Source of the DNA: Candidatus Hydrogenedentota bacterium
Lineage (GTDB): Bacteria > Hydrogenedentota > Hydrogenedentia > Hydrogenedentales > SLHB01
Assembly (NCBI GenBank): GCA_016215105.1
Contig: JACRLJ010000118.1
Location: 9,042 to 72,727, forward strand
DNA length: 63,686 nt
Reading direction: 5' to 3'
Positions 11,411 to 33,398 of the stretch are shown piece by piece. The notes under the pieces were generated by a model, which was not told the DNA's origin, searched no databases, and was given only the letters and a program-made list of their open reading frames with translations. Position 1 is the first letter of the stretch. Every line of letters starts with the position of its first letter. The translations under genes were made by a program, and so were the position numbers.

Positions 11411-11896
11411 ATGAAACTTTCCGACATAGAGAGAGCAATGCGCGATAACGGAGTCAATTTCCGTATGGATTTCTGCGGGACGGATACGATTGTATCCGAC
11501 TACGCGCGGGTCCTCACGCGGCACTGGAAGACGCTGTCCAGCCGCGTTGTGGATTTCGTTGCGGGGGACGCCACGGGGGACACGCAGGGGCACGATGGTT
11601 TAGGGGCGGGCCGGAAAATGGTTGGATCGAGCCGCATTTTCGCAAGTAATTTGGGAACGCCGGTGGTGACTAGAGCAATACGCGCGTTACAGGGAGATGT
11701 AGCGCGTGACGGCGAGCTCGATTCCCTGGTTTCGCAGCCCCTAAGCTATCGTGATTCAGAGGTGTGTGAGGATGCTGAGTACTGTGTCATCGCCGCGTTT
11801 CGCGCGGCCCAAACGAACGCCAAGACGTTTCTTTCCACTTTGGACATTGGGTTGAGAACGCCGTGGGAAACGGCGGCTACAGGTGTTGATCTATGA
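11411..11896 (+). CDS. Hypothetical protein, translationally coupled to the PFOR gene
   Basis: 161 residues, no recognised family. The opening MKLSDIERAMRDNGVNF looks protein-like. Two facts support the gene: its stop overlaps the ATG of the PFOR gene (ATGA), and a near-consensus sigma-54 promoter lies about 65-80 bases upstream. Against it: no strong ribosome-binding site and no visible domain. There are three Cys (FCGTD, EVCEDAEYC) but no metal-site spacing. A GTG at 11372 would extend it. If real, a regulator or accessory protein of PFOR is conceivable, but that is a guess. Confidence 0.4.
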   Translation: MKLSDIERAMRDNGVNFRMDFCGTDTIVSDYARVLTRHWKTLSSRVVDFVAGDATGDTQGHDGLGAGRKMVGSSRIFASNLGTPVVTRAIRALQGDVARDGELDSLVSQPLSYRDSEVCEDAEYCVIAAFRAAQTNAKTFLSTLDIGLRTPWETAATGVDL

Positions 11897-14800
11897 AAGA
11901 TGAGAAGTCTGTGAAGTACCCCGGCGTACGCGACGCGATGGACGGAAATACGTCCGTCATTATGTGTGAACGCGAATCCAGCGACGGGGCGGGCGCCTAT
12001 CCGATAACACCGTCCACTCAGATGGGCGAGTATTGGGCCGAAGAGGCCGCCGCCGGTCATATCAACGTTTCGGGGCGTCCGTTGATTTTCATCGAGCCGG
12101 AAGGTGAACACGCTGCCGCCGCCGTGACAGCGGGCTTGTCCATGACCGGGTTGCGGGCGACGAATTTTTCGTCGGGTCAAGGCATCGCTTACATGCACGA
12201 GTCGCTGTATGCGGCCGTCGGCAAGCGGCTGACCTATGTGCTGAACATGGGGTGCCGCGCAATGACCAAGGCCACCCTGAACGTGCATGCCGGTCATGAT
12301 GACTATCACTGCGTGGACGACACCGGCTTCTTCCAGGTTTTTGGAAAGAATGTGCAGGAGGTGAGCGACCTGAACATCATCGCTCATAAGATTGCGGAGA
12401 TGTCACTCAATCCCGGCATCGTTGCGCAAGACGGCTTCCTGACGACCCACCTGATCGAATCGTTGATGCTTCCCGAGCGCGCGCTGATTGACGAGTACCT
12501 CGGACATCCGGACGACATCATTGATTGCCCGACGCCGGCGCAGCGCTTGATTTTTGGCGACAGGCGCCGCCGCATTCCGGAGCTTTGGACCGTGGACAAT
12601 CCGGTCATGGCGGGCGTGGTTCAAAACCAAGATTCCTACATGCAAAGCGTGGCGGCGCAACGCCCGTTCTTCTTCGATCACATCGTTGAAATGACCGAAA
12701 ACGCGATGGAGGAGTTCTATCAACTTACCGGCCGCCGGTACCAGCGCGTTGCGACCTACAAGGCGGACGATGCGGAATACCTCATTGTCGGCCAGGGCAG
12801 CGTTGTTCCGAGCGCCGAAGTGGTGGCGGATTACCTGCGCGAGACACGCGGTCTTAAAGTGGGCGTCGTGAATCTGACGATGTTCCGGCCTTTCCCGGGC
12901 GATTTGCTTGGTCAGCTCCTGAGGGGACGCAAGGGCGTGGTGGTGCTCGAGCGCACGGATCAGCCCCTGGCGGAGGATCTGCCGGTCATGCGCGAAGTGC
13001 GCGCGACCATGGCCAAGTGCCTCGAAAACGGCGTATCCGGAAATGGCTCCATGCCGTATCCCGGTTATGCGGCCTATTCGAAGCCCGGCGACCTTTCGCC
13101 TCTGTACTCAGGATCGTTCGGTTTGGGCAGCCGCGATTTGCAGCCCGAGGGTCTCATCGGCGCCGTGGAGAACATGCTGCCGAAGGGCAAGCACAAGAAA
13201 CTGTTCTACCTGTCGATTGATTTTGTCCACGAGAAGACCTTCTCGCCGAAACAAGAGTTCTACCAGGAACAGATTCTAGAAGGCTATCCCGCGGTACGAG
13301 ATCTTGCGATTCACGGTACCGAGAATCCGAACCTCATGCCGAAAGGCGCTATCACGGTCCGGTTCCACTCGGTCGGCGGCTGGGGCGCGATCACGACCGG
13401 CAAGAATCTGGCGATGACCTTGTTCGACGTGCTGGGGTATTACATTAAAGCCAATCCAAAGTACGGTTCCGAAAAGAAGGGACAGCCGACCACCTACTAC
13501 CTGTCAGCGGCTCCCGAACCAATCCGCATCAACTCGGAGTACTTTTACGTCGATGTCGTGCTATCGCCCGACCCGAACGTATTCGGCCACTCGAATCCGC
13601 TGGCCGGTTTGATCAAGGGCGGCGTCTTCATTATTCAGAGCGAACTGGAAGCGCCGGAAGACGTATGGCGCACGATTCCGCAGCGTTTTCAGAAGATCAT
13701 CGTAGACAATGAAATCCGGGTGTTTTACCTTGACGCGTTCAAGATCGCCCGCGAAGAAGCCACGGACGTCGAACTTCAGTTCCGCATGCAAGGTAACGCC
13801 TTCCAAGGCGCGTTCTTCCGCGCCTCGAACGTAATGGCGTCGGCCAACTTGACCGAAGAGACACTGTTCAAGGCCATCGAGACGCAGCTTCAGCACAAGT
13901 TCGGAAGCAAGGGCGCGCGCGTGGTCGAGGACAATCTGCGCGTAGTGCGCCGCGGATACGAGCAGCTTCGCGAAATCACGGCTAAGGCCGTTCTGACGGA
14001 TGAAACTGGCGGTGTTCGCAAGGCGGCCATAATGCCGATCATGCTCAAGCAGGAACCGGCAAGCGCCGCGCCGAATACCGATATTCACCGTTTCTGGGAA
14101 CAAACTGGAAACTTCTATCAGTCCGGTCAGGGCGGCGATAACCTTGCCGACCCGTTCATTGGTCTGAGCTGCATTCCCGCGGTTACCGGTATCTTCCGTG
14201 ACATGACCGCGATCCGATTTGACCATCCCGAATGGAATGCCGAGAACTGCACCGGGTGCGGCTCGTGCTGGACCGTATGTCCCGACTCCGCGTTGCCCGG
14301 ACTGGTGAACAAGGTATCCGAGGTGTTCGAGACCGTCGCGGCGCGTGTGGAAGACGCGGGCCACGCGATGCAACGGATTCGCAAGTTCCTCCCCGATCTC
14401 GAGGCGCGGTTGCGCGAGCTCATCGCCGCCGGGACGGAAAAGGATTCGGTACTGGGGCATGTGAGTTCCGCGCTGGAGGCCATCATGGCCAACAGCGGCC
14501 TGGACGAGGCGGGTCTCGGCGAACTACAGGCTGAAGTGGACCTGTTCTACAACGAGATTAAGGACTTCAAATTCGCGTTGACACGCCCTTTCTACACGCT
14601 CAAGGATCAGGATGATTCCGGCACGGGCGGCTTGCTCAGCATCACGGTTGACCCGTATACCTGCAAAGGGTGCATGGAATGCGTCGCGGTGTGCAATGAC
14701 AACGCGCTAAAGCCGGTCCGGCAGACCCCCGAGTCAATTGCTCAGTTGCGCAAGGGCTGGGAGTTTTGGCTCAAACTGCCGAACACCGCGCCCGAATACA

Positions 14801-16938
14801 TCCGCATCGAGGATCTGGAAGAGGGCGTTGGCGCCCTCCAGACGCTGTTGCTCGACAAGACGAACTACAAGTCGATGGCCGGTGGTGACGGCGCGTGCCT
14901 GGGCTGCGGCGAAAAGACCGTGATGCACATTTTCACGGCGACGGTCGAGGCGCTCATGCAGCCGCGCGTCAAGAAGCATATCGCCAAGCTCGAGGACCTC
15001 ATCACGCGCCTCGAACGGCATATCCGCTTGCGCATGGCGGAGACGATTGACGTGACGGATACCGAGGCAATCGGAAACGCGTTGACGGCTCTCAAGAACA
15101 AGGAGCTTACGCTAAGCAACCTTTCGTCGGCGCTGACGCAGACCAAAATCGCTAATTCGATTGACGCGGAGTGGCTGCGGCGGGTGACGAAACTGCTCGC
15201 GAAACTGCGCCAACTGAAGTGGTGCTACACCCACGGAGTCAGCGGCAAGGGCCGCTCCAACATGGGTATGGTGAACAGCACCGGCTGTACCTCCGTTTGG
15301 GGCTCGACGTATCCGTACAATCCGTATCCGTTCCCGTGGGCCAACCACTTGTTCCAGGACAGCACGTCAATGGCGATGGGGCTCTTCGAGGGGCACATGG
15401 CCAAGATGGCGGATGGGTTCCGGGCAATTCGTATGGCGGAACTCGAAATCGACGGACTGTTCAAGCCGGAAACGCACGACGAGTTCTTCAAATACTTCGA
15501 TTGGCGCCAGTTTACCGACGAGGAATTCCTGCTCAGCCCGCCTGTAGTCGCGGTCGGTGGTGACGGCTCGCTGTATGACATCGGTTTCCAAAACCTGTCG
15601 CGCATGATGATGTCCGGCAAGCCGATTAAGGTGATGTGCGTGGACACCCAGGTGTACTCCAACACCGGCGGTCAGGCATGCACCTCGGGATTCATCGGAC
15701 AGATTTCCGACATGGCCCAGTTTGGCAAGGCGCAAAAGGGCAAAGAAGAGATTCGCAAGGAGATCGCCCTGATCGGTATGGCGCACCGGACGACCTACAC
15801 GCTGCAGGCCACCATGGCGAATTCGTCACACCTGATCGAAGGGTTTATCGAAGGTCTGATGGCGCGCCGGCCGGCGCTGTTCAATATCTACACGCCGTGC
15901 ATGCCCGAACATGGGATTGGCGATGACTTGGGCAATCAACAGTCTAAGCTCGCTGTCGAATCTCGCGCGTATCCGATTTTCAAGTACCACCCGGATCATG
16001 GCAAGACGCCCGCGGAGTGCTTCAATCTCGAGGGCAATCCGTCGCTCGAGGACGCGTGGGTTCGGTATACGTTGAACTACATCGACGACGACGGCCAGCC
16101 GGCCGCGATGGAGTTGCCGCTGACCTTTGCCGATTTTGCGGCGACGGAGGCGCGTTTCCGCAAGCAATTCAAGAAGGCGCCCCGCGAGACCTGGAATGAG
16201 AACATGGTCCCGATGGCGGAGTTCCTGGGGTTGTCCGCCGACGACCGTAAGGGCAAGTACCCCTACGTGTGGGCCGTCGGCGCGAATAAGAAATTGATGC
16301 GGCTGATCGCTTCAAACGCCGTGGTGCAGTCCTGCGAAGAGCGCCAGGACTTCTGGATCATGCTCCGCTCGATTGCTGGTCTGGGCGCGACGATTGACGC
16401 GAAAGAGATCGCCCAAAAGGCCAAGATCGAGTTGGCGCAGAAGATTTCGAGCGCCCTGCTTCAGTTGGCGGGTGGCGACTCGTCTTCAATGGTGGCGATG
16501 CCCGCTGCTCCTGTTGCAGCCCCCGCTCCGGTTCAAGTTGCGCCCGTTGCTCCTGCTCCCGTGGCTGCCGCTCCGGCTCCCGCAAAGGCGCCTGCGAAAC
16601 CGGCGGCGCCAGCGGCGCCCGCGAAGCCAGCGGCTCCGGCAGCGGTTCCGGCCGCAGCCGCGCCCGCTCCGGCAGCGGGCGGAAACGGGTTTGTGGCGGC
16701 TTGGGTTGACAGCAAGGATTGCAACGCCTGCGGCGAGTGCATTCAGGTGAATCCGAAGATGTTCCAGTTCAACGCTAAGAAACAGGCTTTTGTCGCGAAC
16801 CCGACCGCTGGTCCGTTCAAAGATATCGTCAAAGCGGCCGAGAAATGCGCATCTCGCGTGATCCATACGGGTACGCCCGCGGATCCTTCCGAGAAGGGCC
16901 TCGAGAAGTTGTTGAAGCGCGCTGAGAAGTTCAAGTAA
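11893..16938 (+). CDS. nifJ: Giant pyruvate:ferredoxin oxidoreductase-like protein with fused C-terminal ferredoxin
   Basis: 1681 residues against roughly 1170-1200 for a standard single-chain PFOR. Order: alpha domain with YPITPSTQMGEYW, beta/transketolase-like domain II, gamma domain (RFHSVGGWGAITTGK), two [4Fe-4S] sites (Cys786/789/792/796 and Cys924/927/930/934), CLGCGE at 1002, TPP-binding domain with GGDGSLYDIGFQN (about 1224) and YSNTGGQAC (about 1253). Extra parts: about 70 residues between the two cluster motifs, a helical insert of about 100 residues (roughly 1020-1115) inside the TPP domain, an Ala/Pro linker (about 1531-1596), and a ferredoxin with Cys1610/1613/1616 and Cys1652. 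The expected reaction is oxidative decarboxylation of pyruvate to acetyl-CoA with low-potential electrons; the divergent substrate domain leaves other 2-oxoacids possible. Cytoplasmic. Confidence 0.9.
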   Translation: MKDEKSVKYPGVRDAMDGNTSVIMCERESSDGAGAYPITPSTQMGEYWAEEAAAGHINVSGRPLIFIEPEGEHAAAAVTAGLSMTGLRATNFSSGQGIAYMHESLYAAVGKRLTYVLNMGCRAMTKATLNVHAGHDDYHCVDDTGFFQVFGKNVQEVSDLNIIAHKIAEMSLNPGIVAQDGFLTTHLIESLMLPERALIDEYLGHPDDIIDCPTPAQRLIFGDRRRRIPELWTVDNPVMAGVVQNQDSYMQSVAAQRPFFFDHIVEMTENAMEEFYQLTGRRYQRVATYKADDAEYLIVGQGSVVPSAEVVADYLRETRGLKVGVVNLTMFRPFPGDLLGQLLRGRKGVVVLERTDQPLAEDLPVMREVRATMAKCLENGVSGNGSMPYPGYAAYSKPGDLSPLYSGSFGLGSRDLQPEGLIGAVENMLPKGKHKKLFYLSIDFVHEKTFSPKQEFYQEQILEGYPAVRDLAIHGTENPNLMPKGAITVRFHSVGGWGAITTGKNLAMTLFDVLGYYIKANPKYGSEKKGQPTTYYLSAAPEPIRINSEYFYVDVVLSPDPNVFGHSNPLAGLIKGGVFIIQSELEAPEDVWRTIPQRFQKIIVDNEIRVFYLDAFKIAREEATDVELQFRMQGNAFQGAFFRASNVMASANLTEETLFKAIETQLQHKFGSKGARVVEDNLRVVRRGYEQLREITAKAVLTDETGGVRKAAIMPIMLKQEPASAAPNTDIHRFWEQTGNFYQSGQGGDNLADPFIGLSCIPAVTGIFRDMTAIRFDHPEWNAENCTGCGSCWTVCPDSALPGLVNKVSEVFETVAARVEDAGHAMQRIRKFLPDLEARLRELIAAGTEKDSVLGHVSSALEAIMANSGLDEAGLGELQAEVDLFYNEIKDFKFALTRPFYTLKDQDDSGTGGLLSITVDPYTCKGCMECVAVCNDNALKPVRQTPESIAQLRKGWEFWLKLPNTAPEYIRIEDLEEGVGALQTLLLDKTNYKSMAGGDGACLGCGEKTVMHIFTATVEALMQPRVKKHIAKLEDLITRLERHIRLRMAETIDVTDTEAIGNALTALKNKELTLSNLSSALTQTKIANSIDAEWLRRVTKLLAKLRQLKWCYTHGVSGKGRSNMGMVNSTGCTSVWGSTYPYNPYPFPWANHLFQDSTSMAMGLFEGHMAKMADGFRAIRMAELEIDGLFKPETHDEFFKYFDWRQFTDEEFLLSPPVVAVGGDGSLYDIGFQNLSRMMMSGKPIKVMCVDTQVYSNTGGQACTSGFIGQISDMAQFGKAQKGKEEIRKEIALIGMAHRTTYTLQATMANSSHLIEGFIEGLMARRPALFNIYTPCMPEHGIGDDLGNQQSKLAVESRAYPIFKYHPDHGKTPAECFNLEGNPSLEDAWVRYTLNYIDDDGQPAAMELPLTFADFAATEARFRKQFKKAPRETWNENMVPMAEFLGLSADDRKGKYPYVWAVGANKKLMRLIASNAVVQSCEERQDFWIMLRSIAGLGATIDAKEIAQKAKIELAQKISSALLQLAGGDSSSMVAMPAAPVAAPAPVQVAPVAPAPVAAAPAPAKAPAKPAAPAAPAKPAAPAAVPAAAAPAPAAGGNGFVAAWVDSKDCNACGECIQVNPKMFQFNAKKQAFVANPTAGPFKDIVKAAEKCASRVIHTGTPADPSEKGLEKLLKRAEKFK

Positions 16939-17192: not shown

Positions 17193-17377
17193 ATGGCGCG
17201 TTTGCGCCCTCCCTTGGCGCTCAAGATTATCTTCGCCCTCACACCGGTGGTGGTCTATTCTGTGCTCGCACTTGGAATGAGCGCCCTACTGCTCATCCTC
17301 ACCGCGACACTGGCCTGTGTCCTCACCGAACACCTCATCTGCCGCATCACAGGTAAGACCACCACCATCTACAATTC
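17193..17377 (+). pseudogene. RnfD/NqrB-like N-terminal fragment
   Basis: A frame from an ATG at 17193 reads MARLRPPLALKIIFALTP then two hydrophobic helices (VVVYSVLALGMSALLLILTA) and CVLTEHLICRITGKTTTIYN. This layout resembles the first two helices of RnfD/NqrB, including the TE..L..R..GK segment before the TI-DGSA loop. The similarity stops at TIYN, where a rho-independent terminator begins, and the rest of the about 320-residue protein is absent. I interpret it as a truncated remnant; a small genuine membrane protein is the alternative. It lies just downstream of PFOR, which is suggestive because Rnf complexes take electrons from ferredoxin. Confidence 0.45.
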
Positions 17378-17403
17378 CGCCGGTTTCGCCGGCGTCTTTT
17401 TTT
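17378..17403 (+). terminator. Rho-independent terminator
   Basis: CGCCGG-TTTCG-CCGGCG stem-loop (17378-17394) followed by TCTTTTTTT. It would end the transcript of the PFOR gene and the RnfD-like fragment. Confidence 0.75.
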
Positions 17404-17405
17404 CG

Positions 17406-17661: not shown

Positions 17662-18891
17662 TTAGAGACCGTATTCGGCGGGGATGAACTTTTCTGCGTA
17701 GAGCGCGGTGTAGTGCGCGGCGCGGGAGTCGCCTAGGGCGAAGTATTCGTCGAGGATGGCGCGGGCGATGCGGAAGCAGGATGCGGGCGCCAGTACCAGC
17801 GCTTCGGCGCTCGTGTGAACGTCGGACTCGCTGAGAAGATTGCGCAACATGAGCGCGGACCCGCTTCGAGTGGCCTGATTCATGAGTTTGCAGTCGTACC
17901 AAAGGTTCTCGAGGCTGACCTCCGGCGTGTACCCGCCGAACAATTGCGCATAAGGAACCGACTCGTTACTCCAGAGATCGCAGCAGGACATGGCCACGTT
18001 ACCGATTGGGCTGGTATGGGCGCATGCGGCCGATTTGCCTTCCATGGAGATGGGGATGCCCGCGATGGCCTTCAGGATTGGGCCTTCATACGCGCAATCC
18101 TTGTCCGGACCCGTCGCGCCACATTCGAGGGCGACCAGCGACCGGGCGGCGCCCACCGCGCGCACCACGGCAGCCAGCACGGTTGGCACCATGTGTTTGT
18201 GCGCCAATTGCATCGCCGTGTTGGCGAAACCGCACGCGGCGTCACCGCCCGCGACCTTGCCGTGACGGCCGCAAATGTCCACGATACGCCGCCAGAGAAA
18301 GGCCATATCGTTCGATGCCAGCGTCCCCATCGCGAAGACGATATCGCCCGCGTTGCATTGGAGCAACGCCGAATCGTTGACTTCCTTGCCCCCGGTGCTT
18401 TCGATTGAAAGAATGTCTGAATAGGGGGCGCACCGCTCGAAGCTCTCGAACATGAGTTCGGTTTCGGCGCTGGTACGGTTGCGCGGCGGCCGGACACGGT
18501 CGCGGATATCGGCGACCGTAGTGCGCAAGGCGGAATGCACGCCCTTGGCCTCGAATTCGCCCATGACTTCGCGCGTGGCCCGGACGACTTTCTCACCCCA
18601 TTCCGGATTCAGCGTAAGCTCGAATACGAGCTCGATTTCGATGATTAGCGCGGGAACTCCCAAATCAAGCGCGCGTTGCAGCGTGCCGGCCGCCATGGTG
18701 CGATACAGCGTGACGACCTGCTCGAGTGTTTCCGCGCTGACTTCGCTGCCGTACGGAAGGATGTAGTTCACTTCCGGCATCGTTTGGCCTCCCCCGATGA
18801 CTATATGGGGGGTGAGCCTGACAGGCTTGGGGCAGGTCCCGAACAGCAAGTCGTCTTCGTGTTCGATTGCCAGCGTGGTGAAGGACTTCAT
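17662..18891 (-). CDS. mtaB: Methanol:corrinoid methyltransferase MtaB
   Basis: 409 residues. Matches MtaB along its length: IGGGQTMPEVNYILP, NPEWGEKVVRATREVM, ALRTTVADIRD, SIESTGGKEV, GGDAACGFANTAMQLA, CGATGPDKDCAYEGPILKAI, GIPISMEGKSAACAHTSP and SCCDLWSNESV. With the ATG at 18891, Glu164 and Cys220 fall exactly on the zinc-ligand numbering known for Methanosarcina MtaB, and Cys266 corresponds to Cys269 there. The enzyme moves the methyl group of methanol to the cobalt of MtaC. It is the last gene of a minus-strand set UroD-UroD-MtaC-MtaB. A homologue acting on another methyl donor cannot be excluded. Two upstream in-frame starts lack a ribosome-binding site. Confidence 0.85.
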   Translation of the reverse strand: MKSFTTLAIEHEDDLLFGTCPKPVRLTPHIVIGGGQTMPEVNYILPYGSEVSAETLEQVVTLYRTMAAGTLQRALDLGVPALIIEIELVFELTLNPEWGEKVVRATREVMGEFEAKGVHSALRTTVADIRDRVRPPRNRTSAETELMFESFERCAPYSDILSIESTGGKEVNDSALLQCNAGDIVFAMGTLASNDMAFLWRRIVDICGRHGKVAGGDAACGFANTAMQLAHKHMVPTVLAAVVRAVGAARSLVALECGATGPDKDCAYEGPILKAIAGIPISMEGKSAACAHTSPIGNVAMSCCDLWSNESVPYAQLFGGYTPEVSLENLWYDCKLMNQATRSGSALMLRNLLSESDVHTSAEALVLAPASCFRIARAILDEYFALGDSRAAHYTALYAEKFIPAEYGL

Positions 18892-19026
18892 AGGCCGTTT
18901 TCGCATCCAATCTACCTGCGGGTCATCCCGCAGGCGTGACAACGCGCGTTCACTTGGTCTACGTGCCAGGGCCTTCGCATGCGTCCCGGCGCGGACAGCC
19001 GCTGTCCGCGCCTTGCGTCGCGCGCG

Positions 19027-19695
19027 TTACGCGTAGACGGTGGACAGGTAATCCAGCGCGCCTTGCGGGTCTGGCGAATACGAATCGGCGCCGATCTTCC
19101 GGCAGAACTCTTCCGTCAACGGGGCGCCGCCCACGAGAATCTTCGTGCTGGGGCATTTCTCTTTGATGAGTTTGACGGTCTTCTCCATGTTGACCATGGT
19201 CATGGTCAAGAGCGCGCTCAGCCCGACGGCGCAGCCAGGATGTTCTTCAACCGCTTTCATGAACTTCTCGGGAGATACGTCCACGCCCAAATCGATGACT
19301 TCGAATCCGCCGCCTTCCATGACCATGCTGACAAGATTCTTGCCGATGTCATGCAAGTCGCCCTGAACCGTTCCCACCACAAACGTGCCCCGGTGCTTGG
19401 CTTCACCGGACTCGAAGTAAGGCTTCAGGTGTTTCATGGCGGCGGTCATCGCTTTCGCGGCCATCAACAGATCAGGAACAAACACTTCGTTGCGGCTGAA
19501 TTTTCCGCCGACTTTTCCCATGCCGATCATAAGGCCCTTGGTGAGAATGTCGTTCGCGGGCACCTTGTCCGCCAGAGCCTGCGCCGTCAGTTCGTCCGCG
19601 CCGTCTTGACCCTTGAGATCCGGCGGGTATGGCGACGTCTTGTTTACTTTGCCCCGCTCTACACACATCGCGATAGTCTCGACAATACTGCTCAT
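19027..19695 (-). CDS. mtaC: Methyltransferase corrinoid protein (MtaC-like)
   Basis: 222 residues: an N-terminal helical cap (about 1-95, ANDILTKGLMIGMGKVGGKF) and a B12-binding Rossmann domain with GDLHDIGKNLV (cobalt-ligand His115), GLSALLTMT and ILVGGAPLT. It carries the methyl group between MtaB and a UroD-type methyltransferase. The ATG is preceded by AAAGGAGGA. It lies 30 bases downstream of a UroD-family gene and 135 bases upstream of mtaB, in line with one transcription unit. Confidence 0.92.
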   Translation of the reverse strand: MSSIVETIAMCVERGKVNKTSPYPPDLKGQDGADELTAQALADKVPANDILTKGLMIGMGKVGGKFSRNEVFVPDLLMAAKAMTAAMKHLKPYFESGEAKHRGTFVVGTVQGDLHDIGKNLVSMVMEGGGFEVIDLGVDVSPEKFMKAVEEHPGCAVGLSALLTMTMVNMEKTVKLIKEKCPSTKILVGGAPLTEEFCRKIGADSYSPDPQGALDYLSTVYA

Positions 19696-19725
19696 GCGTC
19701 CTCCTTTCGGAAACCGGCAATTCGG

Positions 19726-20811
19726 TTACCGGTAGTTTCCCAACTCCATTCCACGTTGGACAAAGTACCTATAGCTCTCGTAATCCACCTGATCCGGTAT
19801 CGAATGGTCCGAATGCAGGACGTATCCAAAATTTCGTTTGACCTCGGGAATCTTCGCTGTCAACTCGCGGTTTATCGTGGCACGGTCGTTCGTATAGAGC
19901 ACCCGCACATCCATTCCGCCCATGAAAGACAAACGATCTCCGAAATCACGAAACAAGCCTAGCAGATCCATCCCCGCCTTCACTTCAATTACCTGAAGGC
20001 AATCCACGCCGGCCTCGATGATACCCGGCACGAGCGGCGCGACATACCCGCACGAGTGCATGATAACTGGCAGACCCTTGGCCCGTGCATAGTCGACCGT
20101 CCGGCGATGCGACGGCTGTATTATCTCACGATACATATCCAAAGATACAAATGGACGTTCCTTGAACCCCATGTCCTCGTAGAACCACACGCCATCGGGG
20201 TACCCTTCTTCCGAAAACAGGATGTCCATGAGATCCAGCGTGAGCTGAGTGTACGTATTTGTCATGTCTTTGATCCAGTCGGGATCCACCAGCATTCCCG
20301 TCAACATATGCTGATGGCCGCACACCGGATGCATCAACTCGAACACGTTTACCCCGGACCATGCAAAGAAGCGCTGGGCGTCCGCGGCGCGGCGCCGGGC
20401 CTCGCGGTAGGCCTCAAAGTTGATGCGGGCCCGATCCGGGGTCAGAAATGGCTTGATGTGTTCTTCCCAAGCGGCACGGTCCTGAACGAGAAAATCCACA
20501 TGCTCCGGTGTTGCATCGTGCAGCTTGTGCCGGCGCAGCAGCGCCCCGTTACCGTCCCGCACCAACTGTGTTTCGTCGGTCTCCTCGACGACCTCCGGGG
20601 TGAAATTGAGGCGCGCGACGAGATTAAACGGCCAGCACAACTGCAGGTCGTATCCAAAATGGTCTTCCATACTCTCGCCGGGTTGAATATGACCCTCGGC
20701 GACCCATTTCTTTTGGGTGTCGCCCCAAAAATGCTCGAACACCCCGATGCGGTCCACGGGCTGCCGCTTCAGGATGTTTTGAATTCGCTCGACTCCAGTC
20801 ATCTCGGACAT
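19726..20811 (-). CDS. UroD-family methyltransferase with HxC zinc motif (MtaA-like)
   Basis: 361 residues. The start at 20811 lies seven bases after the stop of the preceding gene; a longer open frame overlapping that gene is not used. It begins SEMTGVERIQNILKRQPVDRIGVFEHFWGD as in UROD/MtaA proteins. MHSCG (His252, Cys254) matches the first two zinc ligands of methylcobamide:CoM methyltransferases; it is the only UroD paralogue in this window that keeps them. The third Cys ligand is not obvious near the C-terminus (LHSDHSIPDQVDYE). Likely role: accepts the methyl group from the corrinoid protein and passes it to a thiol or to tetrahydrofolate. Bacterial acceptors differ, so the final acceptor is open. 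Confidence 0.8.
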   Translation of the reverse strand: MSEMTGVERIQNILKRQPVDRIGVFEHFWGDTQKKWVAEGHIQPGESMEDHFGYDLQLCWPFNLVARLNFTPEVVEETDETQLVRDGNGALLRRHKLHDATPEHVDFLVQDRAAWEEHIKPFLTPDRARINFEAYREARRRAADAQRFFAWSGVNVFELMHPVCGHQHMLTGMLVDPDWIKDMTNTYTQLTLDLMDILFSEEGYPDGVWFYEDMGFKERPFVSLDMYREIIQPSHRRTVDYARAKGLPVIMHSCGYVAPLVPGIIEAGVDCLQVIEVKAGMDLLGLFRDFGDRLSFMGGMDVRVLYTNDRATINRELTAKIPEVKRNFGYVLHSDHSIPDQVDYESYRYFVQRGMELGNYR

Positions 20812-20818
20812 GTGCGCC

Positions 20819-21955
20819 TCAGTATTTCGGTTCGCCGCCCACGTTGAACAATTCCCGTTTGCGGTCAAGGTAGTGAAGATAGTTTTCGAGGGAAACATCG
20901 GCCGGGACACGATGGTCCATGCCGGGGATGAATCCGCCTTGCTCGACATACGGACGCAACCGCTCGAGCTCCCGATCAGTGGCTTCTTTCGATTCCGACA
21001 CGAGGCGCTTGTCGACTCCGCCCCAGAGTTTGATGCGGCGGCCATATTTCTCGCGCAATGCGCACGGATCGGAGCCGCCATGGACCTCAACCGGGAACAT
21101 GGTCGTCAATCCATTGTCCAGAAACGTGTCCACGATGGGATTGATGTTTCCGTCTGTATCCGTCGTGTAGACACAGCAGCCGTGCGCTGTGAGGAGGTTG
21201 GCGATGCGGCGATACCACGGACCCGCAACGTCGCGGAATACTTCCGGGCTTACGATGGGGCCCATGTTGAAGCAGATGTCTTCCCAACCCATGGCAAAGT
21301 CCGCCTGGACTCGCGGCAGCGCCCGCGCCAACACGGTCACGATGCAGTTGCCGAACGTGTCGATGATTTCCCGGAACAGTTCCGGGTCTTCATACGGAAG
21401 CACGGCGATGTGTTCGAATCCGATGAGATTGCGCGCGATGCCTACGACACTGCCCGCGAAGACACCGATGGCGTCATGTTCATGATTGGCCTTGATGGAC
21501 GCCAGAGACTCCTCGAACGCGGTCCAGCGGCGCTCATCCGCCGGGTCCAGAGCCGCCTTAAACGGTTCCCACGACTTGCGGTCCTTTACGGGGTACTCCA
21601 GATAGTGGGGGATAGAGCGATCACCGTGTTTGTTGATTTCGGCCACGCACCCATACTCGTCGCGGTAGATAATGTGCTCGTCGTTTTCTTCCAAGACGGT
21701 GTGTTTGTACAAGGGCATTGGGCTGCAGTTCGTATTGACGGCGGGCCAGCTCTCGATACCGAAGTAATCGTACGCCGTCGCCTCGTTCACCACGTACTCA
21801 GGCAGGCCCTGTTCACGCCAAACTTCCAGCGTGCGGTCCCAGTATCCGAACTCGAAATTGGGCGGTTGAGCGACTTCCTGGAAGAACATGGTCCGCCGGA
21901 ACCGCTCTTTCAGGGTGAGCCCATCGGGCGATTCAACATGCGAGCCCGTCACCAT
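20819..21955 (-). CDS. UroD-family protein lacking the HxC zinc motif
   Basis: 378 residues from an ATG at 21955; a GTG 24 bases upstream is an alternative because neither start has a strong ribosome-binding site. The fold signature is present (LKERFRRTMFFQ, MGWEDICFNMGPIVSPEVF, GRRIKLWGGVDKR), but the position of the zinc HxC reads TTDTDGNI (about residue 263), so zinc-thiol chemistry is unlikely. First gene of the minus-strand methyltransferase set; it ends seven bases before the next UroD-family gene. The role could be a demethylase-like, substrate-binding or regulatory paralogue. Confidence 0.8.
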   Translation of the reverse strand: MVTGSHVESPDGLTLKERFRRTMFFQEVAQPPNFEFGYWDRTLEVWREQGLPEYVVNEATAYDYFGIESWPAVNTNCSPMPLYKHTVLEENDEHIIYRDEYGCVAEINKHGDRSIPHYLEYPVKDRKSWEPFKAALDPADERRWTAFEESLASIKANHEHDAIGVFAGSVVGIARNLIGFEHIAVLPYEDPELFREIIDTFGNCIVTVLARALPRVQADFAMGWEDICFNMGPIVSPEVFRDVAGPWYRRIANLLTAHGCCVYTTDTDGNINPIVDTFLDNGLTTMFPVEVHGGSDPCALREKYGRRIKLWGGVDKRLVSESKEATDRELERLRPYVEQGGFIPGMDHRVPADVSLENYLHYLDRKRELFNVGGEPKY

Positions 21956-22214
21956 GGGCGACGGCTTGATACTCACACGAGCTTCGCAACCCTCTACGCC
22001 GCTGGCGGATAAGATGCTCGTCCTGTTTCGCCGCAAAAACCTACCGAACCGCAACAGTAGACACAAGTTACATGCCAACGCACGGACACGAAGCCGGGTT
22101 GCGTTATCTGTCTCACTTGCACTAGCTTATGGCGTGATTTCGAGACTGTGCAGGTCCCCGGCGCTTCAAACCCGCCAGTACTGACTAGGACATAAGTGTT
22201 AGGTGATGTTACGT
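21956..22214. other. Divergent promoter region of the two methyltransferase transcripts
   Basis: About 260 bases between divergent UroD-family genes. On the minus strand TGGCATG-N4-TTGT (22063-22077) resembles a sigma-54 promoter, but its -12 GC is GT, so it is recorded only as weak. No cobalamin riboswitch hallmark was seen. No supported coding frame. Confidence 0.3.
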
Positions 22215-22276
22215 ACCGCCAAGCCGAGTGTCCGATCAATCCGAATCTGGCACGGGGATTGATTGCTCCTGGCGGT
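22215..22276 (+). promoter_or_regulatory. Nested inverted repeats in the leader of a UroD-family gene
   Basis: An outer stem ACCGCCA (22215-22221)/TGGCGGT (22270-22276) encloses a perfect inner stem ATCAATCC (22235-22242)/GGATTGAT (22256-22263). The structure ends 39 bases before the GTG start. It also covers TGGCACG-N4-TTGA (22248-22262), a sigma-54-like sequence that misses only the C of the -12 GC. It could be a structured leader or an operator. Confidence 0.45.
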
Positions 22277-22315
22277 GTGGTCCGGGATGCGGATAGGCAG
22301 ATAGGATGACGAATC

Positions 22316-23344
22316 GTGACCCCTCGTGAACGCGTGATCAAGACCCTTACGTTCAGCAATCCTGACCGCGTGCCGTACGATCTCTGGGCCCTGGCCGGGG
22401 TTGGCATGTTCCGCAAGGACGAACTCGAGGAGATGCGCCGCAGGTTTCCCGCCGACATGTGCGGTCCTGCGGTCAAGTATGGGGTGTCAGAGCGGGCCAA
22501 AGGCACGTCCACGCCTACTGTATTGAGTGAACCGTACTACGATGAATGGGGATGTGGCTGGACGTTGGCCGAGATCGGGGTATGTGGCGAAGTCAAGGAT
22601 CCGCCGCTGGCCGACTGGGGCAGCTTGGCTAAATTCACCGCGCCTTGGGAAGTGCTTAACGACGCCGATTTCAGCATGACCAACGGGAGCTGCGCGGACC
22701 GGACGAAATTCTATAAGGCTGGGACCGGCGTGCGTCCTTTTGAACGCATGCAGTTCTTGCGCGGGTCAGAGAATCTCTTCCTTGACTTAGCCTACCAACC
22801 TAGCGAGCTGTTTCAATTGCGCGATATCGTGCATGAGTATTTCGTCAAGGAAATCGAGCTTTGGGCCAGTACCGACGTGGATGCGGTAGGTTTTATGGAC
22901 GACTGGGGCGCCCAGAACAGTCTTCTTATCTCGCCGGACCTTTGGCGGTCCTTCTACAAGCCCCTCTACAAGGACTACTGTGACATCCTGAAGAAGGCGG
23001 GAAAGTACATTTTCTTTCACTCCGACGGCCATATTCGTGCGATCATCCCGGACTTGATTGAACTTGGTGTGGACGCCGTGAATTCTCAGCTCTTCTGCAT
23101 GGACATCGAGGAAATTGGCCGGGAATTCAAGGGGAAAATCACATTTTGGGGTGAGATCTGCCGGCAAAACATCCTGCCGTTTGGGTCGGTCGAGGACGTT
23201 CGGGCCGCAGTACGCCGTGTGCGCCGGGCTTTGGACGATGGCCGCGGAGGTGTTATGGCCCAGTGCGAATGGGGTATCCGTGACCCCCGCGAGAATATCG
23301 CGGCGGTGTTCGAGACGTGGTCCGAGCCACGTTCCGGACCGTAG
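22316..23344 (+). CDS. UroD-family methyltransferase-like protein
   Basis: 342 residues from a GTG; AGGA lies about nine bases upstream and an overlapping ATG frame stops at once. N-terminus PRERVIKTLTFSNPDRVPYDLW is typical of the UROD/MtaA family. The metal-motif position is HSDG (His235, Asp237 in place of Cys), and a later VMAQCEWGIRDPRENI could give a Cys ligand. It is divergent from the methyltransferase operon and sits upstream of the hydrogenase genes. The family suggests methyl transfer to or from a corrinoid, but the changed ligand leaves the reaction open. Confidence 0.8.
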   Translation: MTPRERVIKTLTFSNPDRVPYDLWALAGVGMFRKDELEEMRRRFPADMCGPAVKYGVSERAKGTSTPTVLSEPYYDEWGCGWTLAEIGVCGEVKDPPLADWGSLAKFTAPWEVLNDADFSMTNGSCADRTKFYKAGTGVRPFERMQFLRGSENLFLDLAYQPSELFQLRDIVHEYFVKEIELWASTDVDAVGFMDDWGAQNSLLISPDLWRSFYKPLYKDYCDILKKAGKYIFFHSDGHIRAIIPDLIELGVDAVNSQLFCMDIEEIGREFKGKITFWGEICRQNILPFGSVEDVRAAVRRVRRALDDGRGGVMAQCEWGIRDPRENIAAVFETWSEPRSGP

Positions 23345-24153: not shown

Positions 24154-24345
24154 AACGGGAAGATCCAGTTTTGTGCGGTGCGCCGCCTCGATCGATACGC
24201 CGGCGCGCGGCCGGGCGTGACCGGATTGCTGGAGCGTTCTTGCGGGTTTTCGTGAAGTACAATCGCGGGCGCTGGGGCGCCTGCGTGAACATAGAGGCTC
24301 GCGCGCGCGGCCTTCGCCGGGCGTTGCGGGCGAAAGGAGTTGGGC

Positions 24346-24849
24346 ATGCTGAGTTACTTGTTGAAGCAGCCTCCCGCGCCTCCGTCTGGGGACAAGCGTT
24401 GGAAGCTGGTCGGCGCGACCATGCGCCGGTATGGGTATGAATCGTATGCGCTGATCGAAACAATGCACGCTGTCCAAGAAGCGTTCGGCTTCCTGGACGA
24501 AGAGGCGCTTCGTTTTGTCGCGGCCTCATTGCGGGTTCCACTAAGCCGTGTGTATGGCGTGGCGACCTTTTACCACTATTTCACGCTGAAACCGCAAGGC
24601 CGTCATACGTGCGTGCTGTGTACCGGCACCGCATGCTACATCAAGGGGTCCTCCAAGAATCTCGCCGCCGTCGAGGACAAGTACAAGATCAAACCGGGCG
24701 ACACCACCAAAGACGATAATCTCTCCTTGTTGACGGCGCGGTGCCTGGGATCGTGCGGCTTGGCGCCTGCCGGCGTATTTGACGGAGAGGTCGTGGCCAA
24801 GCTCACACCCGATTTGGTGATGGGGCGGATTGCGAGGTGGATGCCATGA
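24346..24849 (+). CDS. hoxE: NAD-linked [NiFe] hydrogenase diaphorase subunit HoxE (NuoE-like)
   Basis: 167 residues. The ATG at 24346 follows AAAGGAG by seven bases. NuoE/HoxE fold with a thioredoxin-like [2Fe-2S] site: [10 protein letters not shown] and [14 protein letters not shown] supply the four cysteines. [22 protein letters not shown] is the usual helix-strand linker before them. It passes electrons between HoxF and other clusters. Its stop overlaps the hoxF ATG (ATGA). Confidence 0.93.
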
Positions 24850-26489
24850 CGCCTGAAGAACTCAACAAGCTCGCCGCAACTACGCGCAAACACCAACAGC
24901 AGTTCGCGCACCAGATCAATGTATGCGTCGGGACCGGATGCCAGTCGTCGGGCAGCGCGGCCGTACTCGAGGCGCTGACGGGCGAAGTGAAGAAGACCGG
25001 GGCGCAGAGTTCCTGCCTTGTCCGCGGTTCGGGATGCCGCGGGATGTGCGCCAGCGGGCCGCTGTTGTCGGTGGACCCCGAAGGCGTCCTCTACGGGCCC
25101 GTTACGGTCGAGGATGCGCCCGACCTCGTTCGCAGTCTGAGTGAGGGGAAACTCACGCGTCTCGTATGCGAATCGGACTCGCCGTTCTTCACGCGGCAAT
25201 GCCGTGTTGTGCTGGAGAATGCGGGACGGATTGACCCGGAACGGATTCAAGACTACATCGCAATGGAAGGCTACTCCGCGCTGGCGCGCGTTGTTACTGA
25301 GATGAGCCCTGGTGAAGTGCTCGAGGAGATTACGCGCAGCGGACTTCGCGGCCGCGGTGGCGCGGGATACCCGACGGGGTTGAAATGGAGTACGGTCGCC
25401 AAGGCCCGCTCGGAACAGAAGTACGTAATCTGCAATGGGGATGAAGGTGATCCGGGCGCCTTCATGGACCGCAGCGTAATGGAGGATGACCCCCACCGGA
25501 TTATCGAGGGCATGGCCATTGCCGCCTACGCCGTAGGCGCCAAGCAAGGCTATATCTACGTCCGCGCTGAATATCCGTTGGCCATCAAGCGTTTGAAGAA
25601 CGCCCTGGCCCAAGCCAAACGGGACGGATTTCTTGGTGACGGCATCTGCGGCAGTTCGTTCAGCTTTACCGTAGATCTGCGTCTGGGCGCCGGGGCCTTC
25701 GTATGCGGCGAAGAGACCGCGTTAATCGCCTCGGTGGAAGGCCGGCGCGGGATGCCGCGCCCGCGTCCGCCGTATCCCGCGGTAGCCGGACTCTGGGGCA
25801 AGCCGACACTCATCAACAATGTCGAAACGTTCGGAAACATCCAAAGCATCATCCGCAAAGGCGCCGATTGGTTTGCCACGATTGGCACCGAGCGGAGCAA
25901 GGGCACCAAAGTATTCGCGTTGACCGGCCGGGTAGCCAACTCCGGACTCATTGAAGTCCCAATGGGAATCACGCTGCGCGAAATAGTTTACGAAATTGGC
26001 GGGGGCATCCCGGAAGGACGCCGCTGCAAAGGCGTTCAGACCGGCGGGCCATCGGGCGGATGTATACCCGAAGCGCTGCTGGATAGACCCGTGGATTACG
26101 AGTCGCTTGCGGAGTTGGGTTCCATCATGGGCTCGGGAGGAATGATTGTTATCGACGAGACCTCCTGCATGGTGGATGTCGCCAAATACTTCATGGAATT
26201 CTGCATGACCGAGTCCTGCGGAAAGTGTGTGCCGTGCCGGACTGGCACGTCGCAGATGCACGATCTGCTGCACAAGATCACGGAAGGCGAGGCGAGCCTC
26301 GATGATCTGGACTTGCTCCAAGAGCTCTGCGAGGTGGTTCGAAACACCAGCCTGTGCGGCCTGGGACAGTCCGCCCCCAATCCGGTGCTCAGTACCTTGC
26401 GCTATTTCAAGGACGAATATATGGCTCATATTGTGGATAAACAGTGCCCGGCGGGCGTGTGTCAGATGCGGCACGCCGTGGAGGTATGA
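24846..26489 (+). CDS. hoxF: Hydrogenase diaphorase subunit HoxF (NuoF-like, FMN and NAD binding)
   Basis: 547 residues. An N-terminal thioredoxin-like domain has its own [2Fe-2S] cysteines ([10 protein letters not shown] and [12 protein letters not shown]). Then the NADH/FMN module: [30 protein letters not shown] and [14 protein letters not shown]. The C-terminal [4Fe-4S] motif is [12 protein letters not shown] with a distal Cys in [11 protein letters not shown]. It oxidises or reduces NAD(P)(H). Start at the ATG overlapping the hoxE stop; a GTG nine bases upstream is possible. Confidence 0.95.
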
Positions 26490-27208
26490 CTATGGCCTCG
26501 GCTGCTCATGTAGTTACTCTCACCATTGACGGACGCGATGTCAGCGCGAACGCCGACGATACCGTCCTCGAAGTAGCCCGTGAAAACGGCATATTCATCC
26601 CCCGGCTGTGCAATATCGACGGCCTGACTCCGGTCGGCGCGTGCCGGCTGTGTCTTATCGAGATCAAGGGCTCCCCGAAGCTCGTTCCCGCGTGCGTGGC
26701 GAAGGTTACGGAAGGCATGGAAGTTACGACAAAGTCGGAACGCCTGGATCGCTACCGCCGCGTAATACTCGAGATGTTGTTTGCGGAACGCAATCACATT
26801 TGTTCCGTTTGCGTATCCAATGGCCATTGTGAACTGCAGGCCCTGGCGCTCGATATCGGCATGACCCACGTCCGCGTGCCGTACCGCTACTTACGGGTCG
26901 GCATCGACGCGTCTCACGATCGATTCATTGTGGATCATAACCGCTGTGTCTTGTGTACCCGGTGTGTCCGCGTGTGTGATGAGATCGAAGGAGCGCATAC
27001 CTGGGATCTGCTGGGCCGGGGAACGAACTCCCGAGTTATCACCGACCTGCACCAACCCTGGGGGGAATCGGATACCTGCACCAGTTGCGGCAAGTGCGTC
27101 AACGTCTGTCCTACGGGCGCCCTCTCGATCAAGGGGCACTCGGTGGCCGAGATGTCCAAACGCAAACAGTTCCTGCCGTACCTGACGCTGATGAGGACTG
27201 AAAAATGA
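26486..27208 (+). CDS. hoxU: Hydrogenase diaphorase subunit HoxU (NuoG-like N-terminus)
   Basis: 240 residues. N-terminal plant-type [2Fe-2S] domain ([19 protein letters not shown] ... ACVAKV), then [12 protein letters not shown] of the His/Cys-ligated [4Fe-4S] cluster, then two ferredoxin motifs [11 protein letters not shown] and [14 protein letters not shown]. It wires the diaphorase to the hydrogenase half. Start and stop both overlap neighbours by ATGA, which indicates translational coupling. Confidence 0.95.
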
Positions 27209-27741
27209 CAACGAAAGCTAAAGTGGCGACGGTCTGGCTTGACGGATGTTCGGGATGCCATATGTCGTTTCTCGATATGGACGAACGTCTTGTGGGTCTG
27301 GCCGATAAGATAGAACTCGTATACAGCCCCCTCGTGGACAATAAAGTGTTTCCCGATGACGTGGACGTCACGCTCGTGGAGGGCGCAGTCAGCAGCGAGG
27401 ACGACTTGGCGAAGATTCGCAAGGTTCGCGCGCATACGAAAGTGCTGGTGTCACTGGGCGACTGCGCGGTGACCGGCAATGTGCCCGCCATGCGGAATCA
27501 CTTCGACACGATTGACGTGACAAACCGCGCGTATTTCGAGAATGCGGCGCTGCAACAGCAGTTGCCCTGCGAGGTAGTTCCGAAACTTCTTGACCGCGTA
27601 CGGCCCGTCCACGAAGTCGTAAAGGTGGACGTGCATATACCCGGCTGCCCTCCGCCGGCGGATGTGATCCATTTTGCCGTTGCGGAGATGCTCGAAGGCC
27701 GGCTGCCGGACCTGACTGGAAAGACCCGATTCGGAATGTAG
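27205..27741 (+). CDS. hoxY: [NiFe] hydrogenase small subunit HoxY
   Basis: 178 residues, the short form of small subunit with only the proximal cluster. Ligands visible: CSGC (Cys15, Cys18), LGDCAVTGN and [11 protein letters not shown]. There is no Tat signal, so it is cytoplasmic. Length and motif order match group 3d NAD-reducing hydrogenases. Confidence 0.95.
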
Positions 27742-27829
27742 GAGAAACCGTGTCGCCTGCGCGTTTTGGCCCATGGCCGAAGCCGCGGCGCAACCACTTG
27801 AAACACATACAATCGCAGGAGTTGACTCC

Positions 27830-29284
27830 ATGACGCGACAGATAGTTATAGATCCCGTGACCCGGATCGAGGGGCACGCAAAGATTACCATTCACCTCGA
27901 TGACGATGGCCGTGTGCAGAACGCCGAGTTCCACGTGACGCAATTCCGCGGATTCGAGAAGTTCTGCGAGGGCCGGCCCTTCTCCGAAATGCCGTCGTTG
28001 ATGGCGCGGATTTGCGGCATTTGTCCGGTCAGCCATCTTATCGCATCCGCCAAGGCGTGCGACGAATTGCTCGCCGTACAAATTCCCCGAACCGGTCAGT
28101 ATCTGCGGCGCTTGATGAACCTGGCCCAGATGGTTCAGTCACACGCGTTGAGTTTTTTTCATCTGGCGTCACCGGATCTCTTGTTGGGTATGGACAGCGA
28201 TCCGGGTAAGCGCAATATTTTCGGAGTGCTCGAAGCGCACCCGGAATTGGCGCGCGACGGTATCCAACTGCGGAAGTTCGGCCAGCAAATCATCGAGTGG
28301 CTGGGCGGGAAGCGCATTCACCCAGCGTGGGTGGTGCCAGGAGGAGTGAGCGCGCCGTTGACCGCTGAACGCCGCGACCAGATTCTCGCCACCGTGCCGG
28401 AGGCGCTCGAAATCGCGAAACGCACGATTAAGTGGTACAAGGGCGTCTACGAGAAGTTTCAAAGCGAGATCGCGACCTTTGCGAATTTTCCCTCGTTGTT
28501 CATGGGGCTTACCACCGAGAGGGGCAGGCTGGCCCTTTACGATGGCAAGCTGCGTTTCATGGATGAAGCTGGAAACATCATCGCGGATCGGCTCGAGCCC
28601 TCCCAGTACTCTGAGTACATCGAAGAAGCGGTTGAACCGTACTCCTATCTCAAGTTTCCGTACTACAAGCCCATGGGATATCCCGATGGCTGCTATCGTG
28701 TGGGGCCGCTGGCCCGCTTGAATATCTGCACCAATTGTGGAACCCCGATTGCCGACGCGGAGCTGACCGAGTTCCGTCAGATTCAGGAAGGCGCCGTTCT
28801 AAGCTCGTTCCACTATCACTACGCGCGGCTCATCGAGATCATATTCTGTCTCGAGCGGATGGAGATTTATCTCACCCACCCGGACATTCTCAGCAAGCAT
28901 GTGCGCGCGTTTGCGGGGCCGAACAGCCTTGAGGGCGTTGGCGTGACGGAAGCGCCGCGAGGAACGCTTATTCATCACTACCGGATTGACGAAAACGGAC
29001 TGATGAAGTGGGCGAACCTAATCATCGCGACTGGCCACAACAACGCCGCGATGAATCGCGGGGTGACCCAGGTGGCGAAGCACTACATCAAGGGCGCGAC
29101 AATACCCGAAGGAATGCTCAATCGGGTCGAGGCCGTGATCCGTACCTACGATCCGTGTCTGAGTTGTTCAACTCACGCCGTGGGCCAAATGCCGCTTCAC
29201 GTGCAACTCGTGGCCCCCGATGGGACGCTGGTTGCGGAGGCGCGCCGGGATGACCCCGATGGTGTTGGTGGTCGGATACGGTAA
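27830..29284 (+). CDS. hoxH: [NiFe] hydrogenase large subunit HoxH
   Basis: 484 residues from the ATG at 27830, which follows AGGAG by eight bases; an upstream ATG at 27773 lacks a site. The Ni-Fe centre ligands are all present: [10 protein letters not shown] (Cys62, Cys65) and DPCLSCSTH (Cys443, Cys446, with His449 at the processing point). The 35 residues after His449 are the C-terminal extension removed by Hox[13 protein letters not shown] marks the N-terminus. The sequence is of group 3d type (bidirectional, NAD-coupled). The catalytic site looks intact. Confidence 0.96.
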
Positions 29285-29708
29285 TCCGCTTCGGCAGGAT
29301 GACGGCGCTGGGTGGCAAGTGGCGCAGCGTGTCGAAGCGCTCCCGCCTAGCGGTACCGATGTGCGCGTGATAGTATGTCATCAGTTGACGCCTGAGCTGG
29401 CCGAGCCGCTATCCGCGTCGCGGCGCGCGGTATTCATTGATGCAGGCATTGAAGGCGCGCCGGGTTCGGTGGAGAGCCGTTCTATCGTGCCCGCCTCGGG
29501 TACGCCGCAATTCGGCGCGCACCGGTTCGGGCCATCGGAGCTGTTGGCCACCGCGCAGGCGTTGTTTGGCGCCAGTCCGGCGGCGTACTTGATCACGGTG
29601 AACGGACGGGATTTTGGCTACGGGTCCGAACTGTCGGAGCCTGTCAAAGACTCCCTGGACGCAGCGGCGGCTTTGGTTGTTGAACTGACCCATGCGGCGG
29701 AAAAGTAG
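29250..29708 (+). CDS. hoxW: Hydrogenase maturation endopeptidase HoxW
   Basis: 152 residues, overlapping the end of hoxH by 35 bases. [16 protein letters not shown] carries the first nickel-binding acidic residue of HycI/HoxW proteases, and FIDAGIEG the second (Asp). It cleaves the HoxH C-terminal extension after nickel insertion. Start chosen at the ATG with GGAGG upstream; the ATG nine bases later is also possible. Confidence 0.9.
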
Positions 29709-29714
29709 GCTTCC

Positions 29715-30113
29715 ATGCACGAATTCGGAATTGCCGACGCGATACTTGCCAAGACACTGGAAATCTCCGCGGCCAACGGTGGCGCGTCCGTGGAGAGGGT
29801 GCAGGTCCTGGTAGGCGGCCTTCGCCAATTGGTTCCGGAAATGTTGGAGTTCGCGTTCAACGCGTTAGCGGCGGAGACGGCCGCACGAGGCGCGGCGCTG
29901 GATGTCGAGTTGGCGCCGGTGCGAGTCGTGTGCCGGAACTGCGAGCACGCATTTGAACCGGATGACCTGTTTTGGACGTGTCCAGTGTGCGGGACCTGCG
30001 GCGCAAATGCGGTGACGGGCGATGAATTGATCCTGAAGAGCGTCACATTGGCCGATGTGGCGCCGGAGACTGCGAGCGCTCGGCCTGAGCCGTCAGGCGA
30101 GAAGGGACGATGA
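29715..30113 (+). CDS. hypA: Hydrogenase nickel incorporation protein HypA
   Basis: 132 residues starting with the diagnostic MHEFGIADAI, whose His2 binds nickel. The zinc domain is CRNC ... CPVCGTC (about residues 76-95). It works with HypB to load nickel into HoxH. The stop overlaps the hypB ATG (ATGA). The last 20 residues are a disordered extension. Confidence 0.95.
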   Translation: MHEFGIADAILAKTLEISAANGGASVERVQVLVGGLRQLVPEMLEFAFNALAAETAARGAALDVELAPVRVVCRNCEHAFEPDDLFWTCPVCGTCGANAVTGDELILKSVTLADVAPETASARPEPSGEKGR

Positions 30114-30781: not shown

Positions 30782-30783
30782 CT

Positions 30784-33153: not shown

Positions 33154-33398
33154 CTACTCCGGGACAAATCGAGAGCATTCAGGATAACGGGCCGCTGCAA
33201 CGTCAAGGCAAGGTCCGCTTCGGAGGAATCTGTAAGGAAGTCTCCCTGGCGCTTGTTCCCGAAGCGCAGGTCGGCGATTACGTGCTAGCGCACGCGGGTT
33301 TGGCCATTGGAATTGTAGACGCTGAGGAAGCCGCGAAAGTCTTCGAGTATCTGAGAGAGTTGGGTGATCTCGAAGAATTGGAGGGTACGGCGCCATGA
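33144..33398 (+). CDS. hypC: Hydrogenase maturation chaperone HypC
   Basis: 84 residues beginning [10 protein letters not shown]; Cys2 is the essential residue that binds iron and HypD. It overlaps the hypF end by ten bases and the hypD start by four. The small beta-barrel core ([31 protein letters not shown]) is complete. The start is fixed by the family's invariant N-terminus. Confidence 0.95.

Follow-up and report, generated by a model that had tools for sequence, protein, structure and literature searches.

A multi-phylum PFOR family with a tethered ferredoxin, usually encoded within rnf operons

The stretch of Hydrogenedentota DNA analysed here (63,686 nucleotides, henceforth the window) encodes a PFOR-like protein that an earlier note, made from the sequence, had read as an enzyme with two helical inserts and a ferredoxin of its own at the end of a long linker. 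The locus thereby raises the question of whether such an enzyme passes its electrons to a tethered carrier and, if so, to which partner the carrier would deliver them.

Architecture of the PFOR-ferredoxin fusion protein

As shown in Table 1, the open reading frame (ORF) is intact over 1681 residues and ends in a ferredoxin, as the note had claimed, and all expected Fe-S ligands are present. The POR_N, PFOR_II, POR and TPP_enzyme_C domains of the PFOR superfamily all score above the Pfam cut-offs, and Pfam also matches the Fe-S domains and a Fer4_15/Fer4_13-type C-terminus. A frameshift or artefactual fusion was ruled out, since many independent genomes, complete megaplasmids included, share this architecture. 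The best NCBIfam family is TIGR02176 (single-chain PFOR), and the best solved relatives in the PDB are the PFORs of Moorella and D. africanus; because the TIGR02176 score of 400.7 bits falls below the cut-off of 911.35, we regard the protein as a PFOR relative that lies outside the standard equivalog.

Table 1. Features of the fusion gene and its immediate downstream flank, in window positions
Feature	Position	Strand	Basis
PFOR-ferredoxin fusion protein, 1681 aa	11893..16938	+	Intact open ORF, ATG start; Pfam/NCBIfam/PDB matches; relatives 1630-1680 aa
POR_N domain, residues 33-260, TPP-binding	11989..12672	+	Pfam, above cut-off
PFOR_II domain, residues 294-375	12772..13017	+	Pfam, above cut-off
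POR gamma-type domain, residues 495-690	13375..13962	+	Pfam, above cut-off
Fe-S motif 1, Cys 786/789/792/796	14248..14280	+	Kept in 78/78 members and 8 standard PFORs
Insert 1, four predicted helices, residues ~808-889	14314..14559	+	No counterpart in standard PFORs; AlphaFold2
Fe-S motif 2, Cys 924/927/930/934	14662..14694	+	Family alignment
CxxC (1002/1005), putative TPP-proximal cluster, completed by Cys 1132 and Cys 1336	14896..14907	+	Family alignment
Insert 2 in TPP domain, predicted helical, residues ~1006-1113	14908..15231	+	Alignment and AlphaFold2
TPP_enzyme_C domain, residues 1217-1331	15541..15885	+	Pfam, above cut-off
Ala/Pro-rich linker, predicted disordered, residues 1529-1597	16477..16683	+	pLDDT < 50; family-variable
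Tethered ferredoxin domain, Cys 1610/1613/1616/1652	16684..16935	+	Alignment, PDB profile, model
rnfD remnant, about RnfD residues 25-89	17214-17405	+	11/11 RnfD queries, E down to 4e-9

The 78 full-length family members were compared with eight standard PFORs: E. coli YdbK and seven enzymes encoded by genomes of the same order. The 12 cysteines predicted to form the three [4Fe-4S] ligand sets of the PFOR part are invariant in 78/78 members and align with those of all eight standard PFORs. Equally invariant (78/78) are T39, E72 and R122 of the POR_N domain, which align with invariant, identical residues of the standard PFORs at positions that we take to be the substrate- and TPP-contacting ones. 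The family resembles the single-chain PFORs (NifJ/YdbK; D. africanus 1b0p, Moorella thermoacetica 6cin) in the order of its domains, in its TPP domains and three [4Fe-4S] ligand sets, and in the YPITPS motif and aligned active-site residues. Unlike these enzymes, the window protein falls below the TIGR02176 cut-off, and its family is only about 25% identical to standard PFORs, carries two helical inserts and a linker with a ferredoxin, and is found in rnf operons. The low identity and the sub-threshold TIGR02176 score would also suit a 2-oxoacid oxidoreductase whose substrate is not pyruvate; we consider this quite improbable, given that pyruvate enzymes head both the NCBIfam and the PDB matches, that the aligned T, E and R (whose contact role is taken from general knowledge) are invariant and that a separate KorAB-like 2-oxoacid enzyme is encoded nearby at several loci.

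The stretch between the two Fe-S motifs, counted so as to include the last Cys of motif 1 and the first of motif 2, measures 122-131 residues in the family versus 47 in the standard PFORs, so that the extra segment previously described between these motifs is real but is longer than thought, at about 80 rather than about 70 residues. The estimate of about 100 extra residues in the TPP domain held, with 125-130 residues from the CxxC to the NxTGC motif compared with 26 in standard PFORs. Both inserts are missing from all standard PFORs compared, which speaks against their being common in known enzymes. An AlphaFold2 model (residues 742-1681, 46-row alignment, monomer, cofactors absent) predicts both to be helical, as had been proposed, with four high-confidence helices in insert 1, and a helix of 46 residues followed by shorter helices in insert 2. 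When this fragment model was compared with PFOR crystal structures by fold search, E was ~1e-13 with a TM-score of about 0.34, and scores this low mean that its domain packing is not to be trusted.

The linker, predicted to be disordered, has the length of about 65 residues given for it in the note, whereas its Ala/Pro character is particular to the window protein: across the family linker length varies widely and A, G, P and S are the most abundant residues. An Ala/Pro linker is E2-like and could suggest that the enzyme is instead a lipoyl-type 2-oxoacid dehydrogenase, equipped with a genuine swinging lipoyl arm. We give this a practically negligible chance and exclude it by domain content, since Pfam matches no lipoyl or E2 domain in the 1681-aa protein and the module carried by the linker is a ferredoxin, its ligand set complete in 78/78 members.

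The four cysteines of the CxxCxxC...C site that the note had recognised are kept in every one of these members. In a profile search, the best PDB match of the tethered domain is D. africanus FdI (E 4.5e-10), and its model (mean pLDDT 88) matches 1fxr with an rmsd of 0.8 Å over 58 columns. With a CxxCxxC motif, a remote Cys that is not followed by Pro, and a predicted ferredoxin fold, the domain has the features of a putative FdI-type single-cluster ferredoxin; the Cys pattern is characteristic of ferredoxins with a single [4Fe-4S] cluster, D. africanus FdI among them (PMC10052474). FdI (1fxr/1dax) shares the single-cluster fold and is itself a partner of PFOR, with which it forms a weak, transient complex (PMC10052474); unlike FdI, the tethered domain is covalently joined to the enzyme and has an extra C-terminal helix. 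A split version occurs in a related genome that is without the fusion (G008; L032 2384-5350, minus strand), where PorD, PorA and PorB genes are followed by the gene of a stand-alone ferredoxin that shares 54% identity with the tethered domain. Here, gene neighbourhood links the same ferredoxin with this enzyme type. The putative role of the tethered ferredoxin as an electron carrier thus receives strong comparative support from the 78/78 ligand sets, the likeness to FdI and the split version.

Fusion of a PFOR to its own electron acceptor is also a feature of the pyruvate:NADP+ oxidoreductase (PNO) of Euglena and Cryptosporidium, a eukaryotic PFOR fused to a flavoprotein reductase. The principle is shared; the acceptor there is a flavoprotein reductase and here a ferredoxin, and no flavin/NADPH reductase domain of the PNO kind was matched by Pfam in the 1681-aa protein.

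A widespread family and its rnf operon setting

A scan of GTDB genomes yielded at least 568 confirmed relatives. The best 80 of these belong to the window's own group, Hydrogenedentota, and to Bacteroidota, Pseudomonadota, Acidobacteriota, Calditrichota, Myxococcota, Planctomycetota, Verrucomicrobiota and Kiritimatiellota; the family spans at least nine phyla and hundreds of species, aerobes among them. Its spread inside Hydrogenedentota was judged from 30 relatives and the best 80 contigs of the scan, and no viral relatives were confirmed in the search. Complete members have about 1630-1680 residues and are 53-72% identical to the window protein, the Gemmatirosa (Gemmatimonadota) homologue being 53% identical; among the 78 aligned full-length members the mean identity is 63% and the minimum 60%. 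In a quick tree, a very long branch separates the family from the standard PFORs, and phyla are partly intermixed, which is compatible with transfer. The two inserts, an identity of 25% and the depth of the split in the tree ruled out an ordinary PFOR that merely has an odd linker. As judged by sequence comparison, this is a distinct, deeply separate PFOR family, and membership in so large a multi-phylum family is a point that the earlier note overlooked.

The note also missed the partner suggested by the genomic setting. By neighbour clustering and direct search, rnfC is the gene directly downstream of the PFOR gene in 69 of the 74 loci with enough flank. Three of the five exceptions seem to stem from the scoring rule (rnfC adjoins the PFOR gene in L107 and lies at +828 in L084, and rnfD lies at +1363 in L052), which leaves L077 and the window as the apparent true exceptions. 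Under a strict rule, rnfB is directly upstream in 38/74 loci, and in Bacteroidota it is at the operon's end; rnfD, G, E and A come after rnfC, often with a ferredoxin-NADP reductase (FNR) gene as well. RnfB, C, D, E and A of these operons score above their NCBIfam cut-offs, and RnfG slightly below. Persicobacter psychrovividus and Gemmatirosa kalamazoonensis carry the same operon on megaplasmids. At the loci of standard PFORs from the same order, rnf genes were found in 0/7 (flanks of 49 bp to 16 kb). In two relatives (L131 in G016 and L132 in G011), rnfB and rnfC are adjacent with no PFOR gene between them, and this junction looks like an empty slot for the long PFOR. The neighbouring genes of the relatives thus resemble the Rnf complex (RnfBCDGEA, ferredoxin:NAD+ oxidoreductase), and differ from its usual form in that a PFOR gene lies between rnfB and rnfC. 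Since the PFOR gene is normally located within an rnf operon, Rnf is its likely partner, and the position beside rnfC suggests a direct hand-over of pyruvate electrons to the Rnf ion pump.

Two further observations concern these neighbourhoods. A conserved protein of ~120 aa is encoded directly upstream of the PFOR gene, mostly in Bacteroidota, where other phyla have rnfB (L055, L057, L058, L060-L063, L066, L068, L069, L073, L075, L078, L087, L092). KorA/KorB-type 2-oxoacid:ferredoxin oxidoreductase genes are found near the PFOR-rnf operon, at L066 roughly 6.3-9.2 kb beyond the end of the PFOR gene and likewise at L050, L052, L054, L056, L069, L095 and L109, which suggests a broader ferredoxin-based central metabolism in those bacteria.

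No description of a PFOR-ferredoxin fusion or of a PFOR within rnf was found among open-licence PMC papers, and the terms ‘PFOR’, ‘fusion’ and ‘supercomplex’ are absent from a 2025 Rnf review. The modules are known; their conserved assembly is new and apparently undescribed.

The window copy beside a decayed rnf operon

The window protein is a family member by sequence, encoded outside an rnf operon. Beyond its stop codon, at a distance of 275 bp, lies an rnfD remnant (Table 1), the sole match to TIGR01946 in its own genome. No rnfB remnant was found upstream of the PFOR gene. An rnf operon elsewhere was ruled out in this genome, which has no RnfC above the cut-off, no RnfE match and no RnfD other than the remnant; the genome is 95% complete, and the chance that an operon was missed is small. 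On this evidence from sequence, the locus is the relic of an rnf operon that the genome has lost, a further point on which the earlier note is silent. A second case of rnf decay may be G025, where the end of a long-PFOR gene (L035 1-1384) is followed by a gene for a 397-aa RnfC homologue without Fe-S motifs and where the one RnfD-like match is sub-cut-off.

Conservation of the PFOR core is 0.646 in the window protein and 0.630-0.660 in sister genomes that have Rnf, and, since the core is conserved as in the sisters, the window PFOR is probably still used. With rnf decayed here, the shuttle would most likely serve an acceptor other than Rnf, such as the lone homologue of the operon FNR (52% identical, encoded elsewhere in the genome), a Hox-type hydrogenase encoded 7.4 kb downstream, or free ferredoxin. 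The hydrogenase region (24340-34513, plus strand) contains HoxE-, NuoF/HoxF- and HoxU-like genes, VhuG- and VhuA-like [NiFe] hydrogenase subunit genes, and genes for a maturation protease, HypF and HypD; it may be a hybrid NAD-linked hydrogenase operon and a possible electron outlet. Between it and the PFOR gene, a methylotrophy-type cluster occupies 17662-23344, with a gene for the methanol:corrinoid methyltransferase MtaB (minus strand) and two MtaA/URO-D-like genes.

A proposed leashed electron carrier and its alternatives

Considering the rnf operon context, the reading we hold to be probable is that the enzyme is a PFOR of a distinct family whose FdI-type [4Fe-4S] ferredoxin acts as a flexibly linked, dedicated acceptor that shuttles electrons to Rnf or FNR. 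By homology, pyruvate would be converted to acetyl-CoA and CO2 on TPP, and electrons would pass through the proximal cluster and then on through the Fe-S domain with its two clusters. The tethered ferredoxin would swing in, accept one electron, swing out and dock on Rnf, probably on RnfB, or on the FNR of the same operon; Rnf would then transfer the electron to NAD+ and pump ions, or the whole chain would run in reverse for pyruvate synthesis. The leash would raise the local concentration of an otherwise weakly binding partner and reduce leakage of low-potential electrons. In a synthetic precedent, which involved a hydrogenase rather than a PFOR, ferredoxin on a flexible linker likewise steered electrons, and linker lengths in the intermediate range gave a nearly five-fold rise in pyruvate-driven hydrogen production (PMC2847965).

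Against delivery to Rnf, the window member keeps its tether without Rnf and with a core as conserved as in its Rnf-bearing sisters, and gene linkage is compatible with mere co-regulation. The same two points, co-regulation being sufficient for a shared operon, would fit a C-terminal ferredoxin that is a fixed extra wire or fourth storage cluster, with free ferredoxin or flavodoxin as the true carrier. This is unlikely in our view, since the linker is predicted to be disordered and varies widely in length, and the domain, complete as a ferredoxin, is of the same kind as the free partner of PFOR.

Somewhat less doubtful, though still unlikely, is that the same link operates in the opposite direction, with Rnf drawing on NADH and the ion gradient to supply the tethered ferredoxin with electrons so that the enzyme serves as a pyruvate synthase in acetate/CO2 assimilation. 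Many hosts are aerobes or phototrophs, in which pyruvate oxidation would be expected of PDH; genes of the PDH E1 type are present in the window genome, and Rnf is known to run backwards to feed nitrogenase in Azotobacter (PMC12174285). However, neighbour clustering revealed no carbon-fixation genes as conserved operon partners, and in aerobic cells a PFOR can be used to oxidise pyruvate (PMC8887894).

Returning to the shuttle, a tentative extension of it, to which we give slightly less than an even chance, is that PFOR and Rnf form a physical supercomplex that the leashed ferredoxin never leaves, with the helical inserts as docking surfaces. If true, this would be a pyruvate-driven ion pump or, reversed, a pump-driven pyruvate synthase, in hundreds of species including aerobes. 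The family is represented in isolates, and the decayed operon of the window is a natural loss-of-partner case. The presence of the family in aerobes such as Algoriphagus and Gemmatirosa raises the question of how PFOR operates there. Ferredoxin is usually treated as a freely diffusing currency; a family that keeps it on a leash, encoded beside rnfC, suggests a channelled transfer of low-potential electrons into an ion pump.
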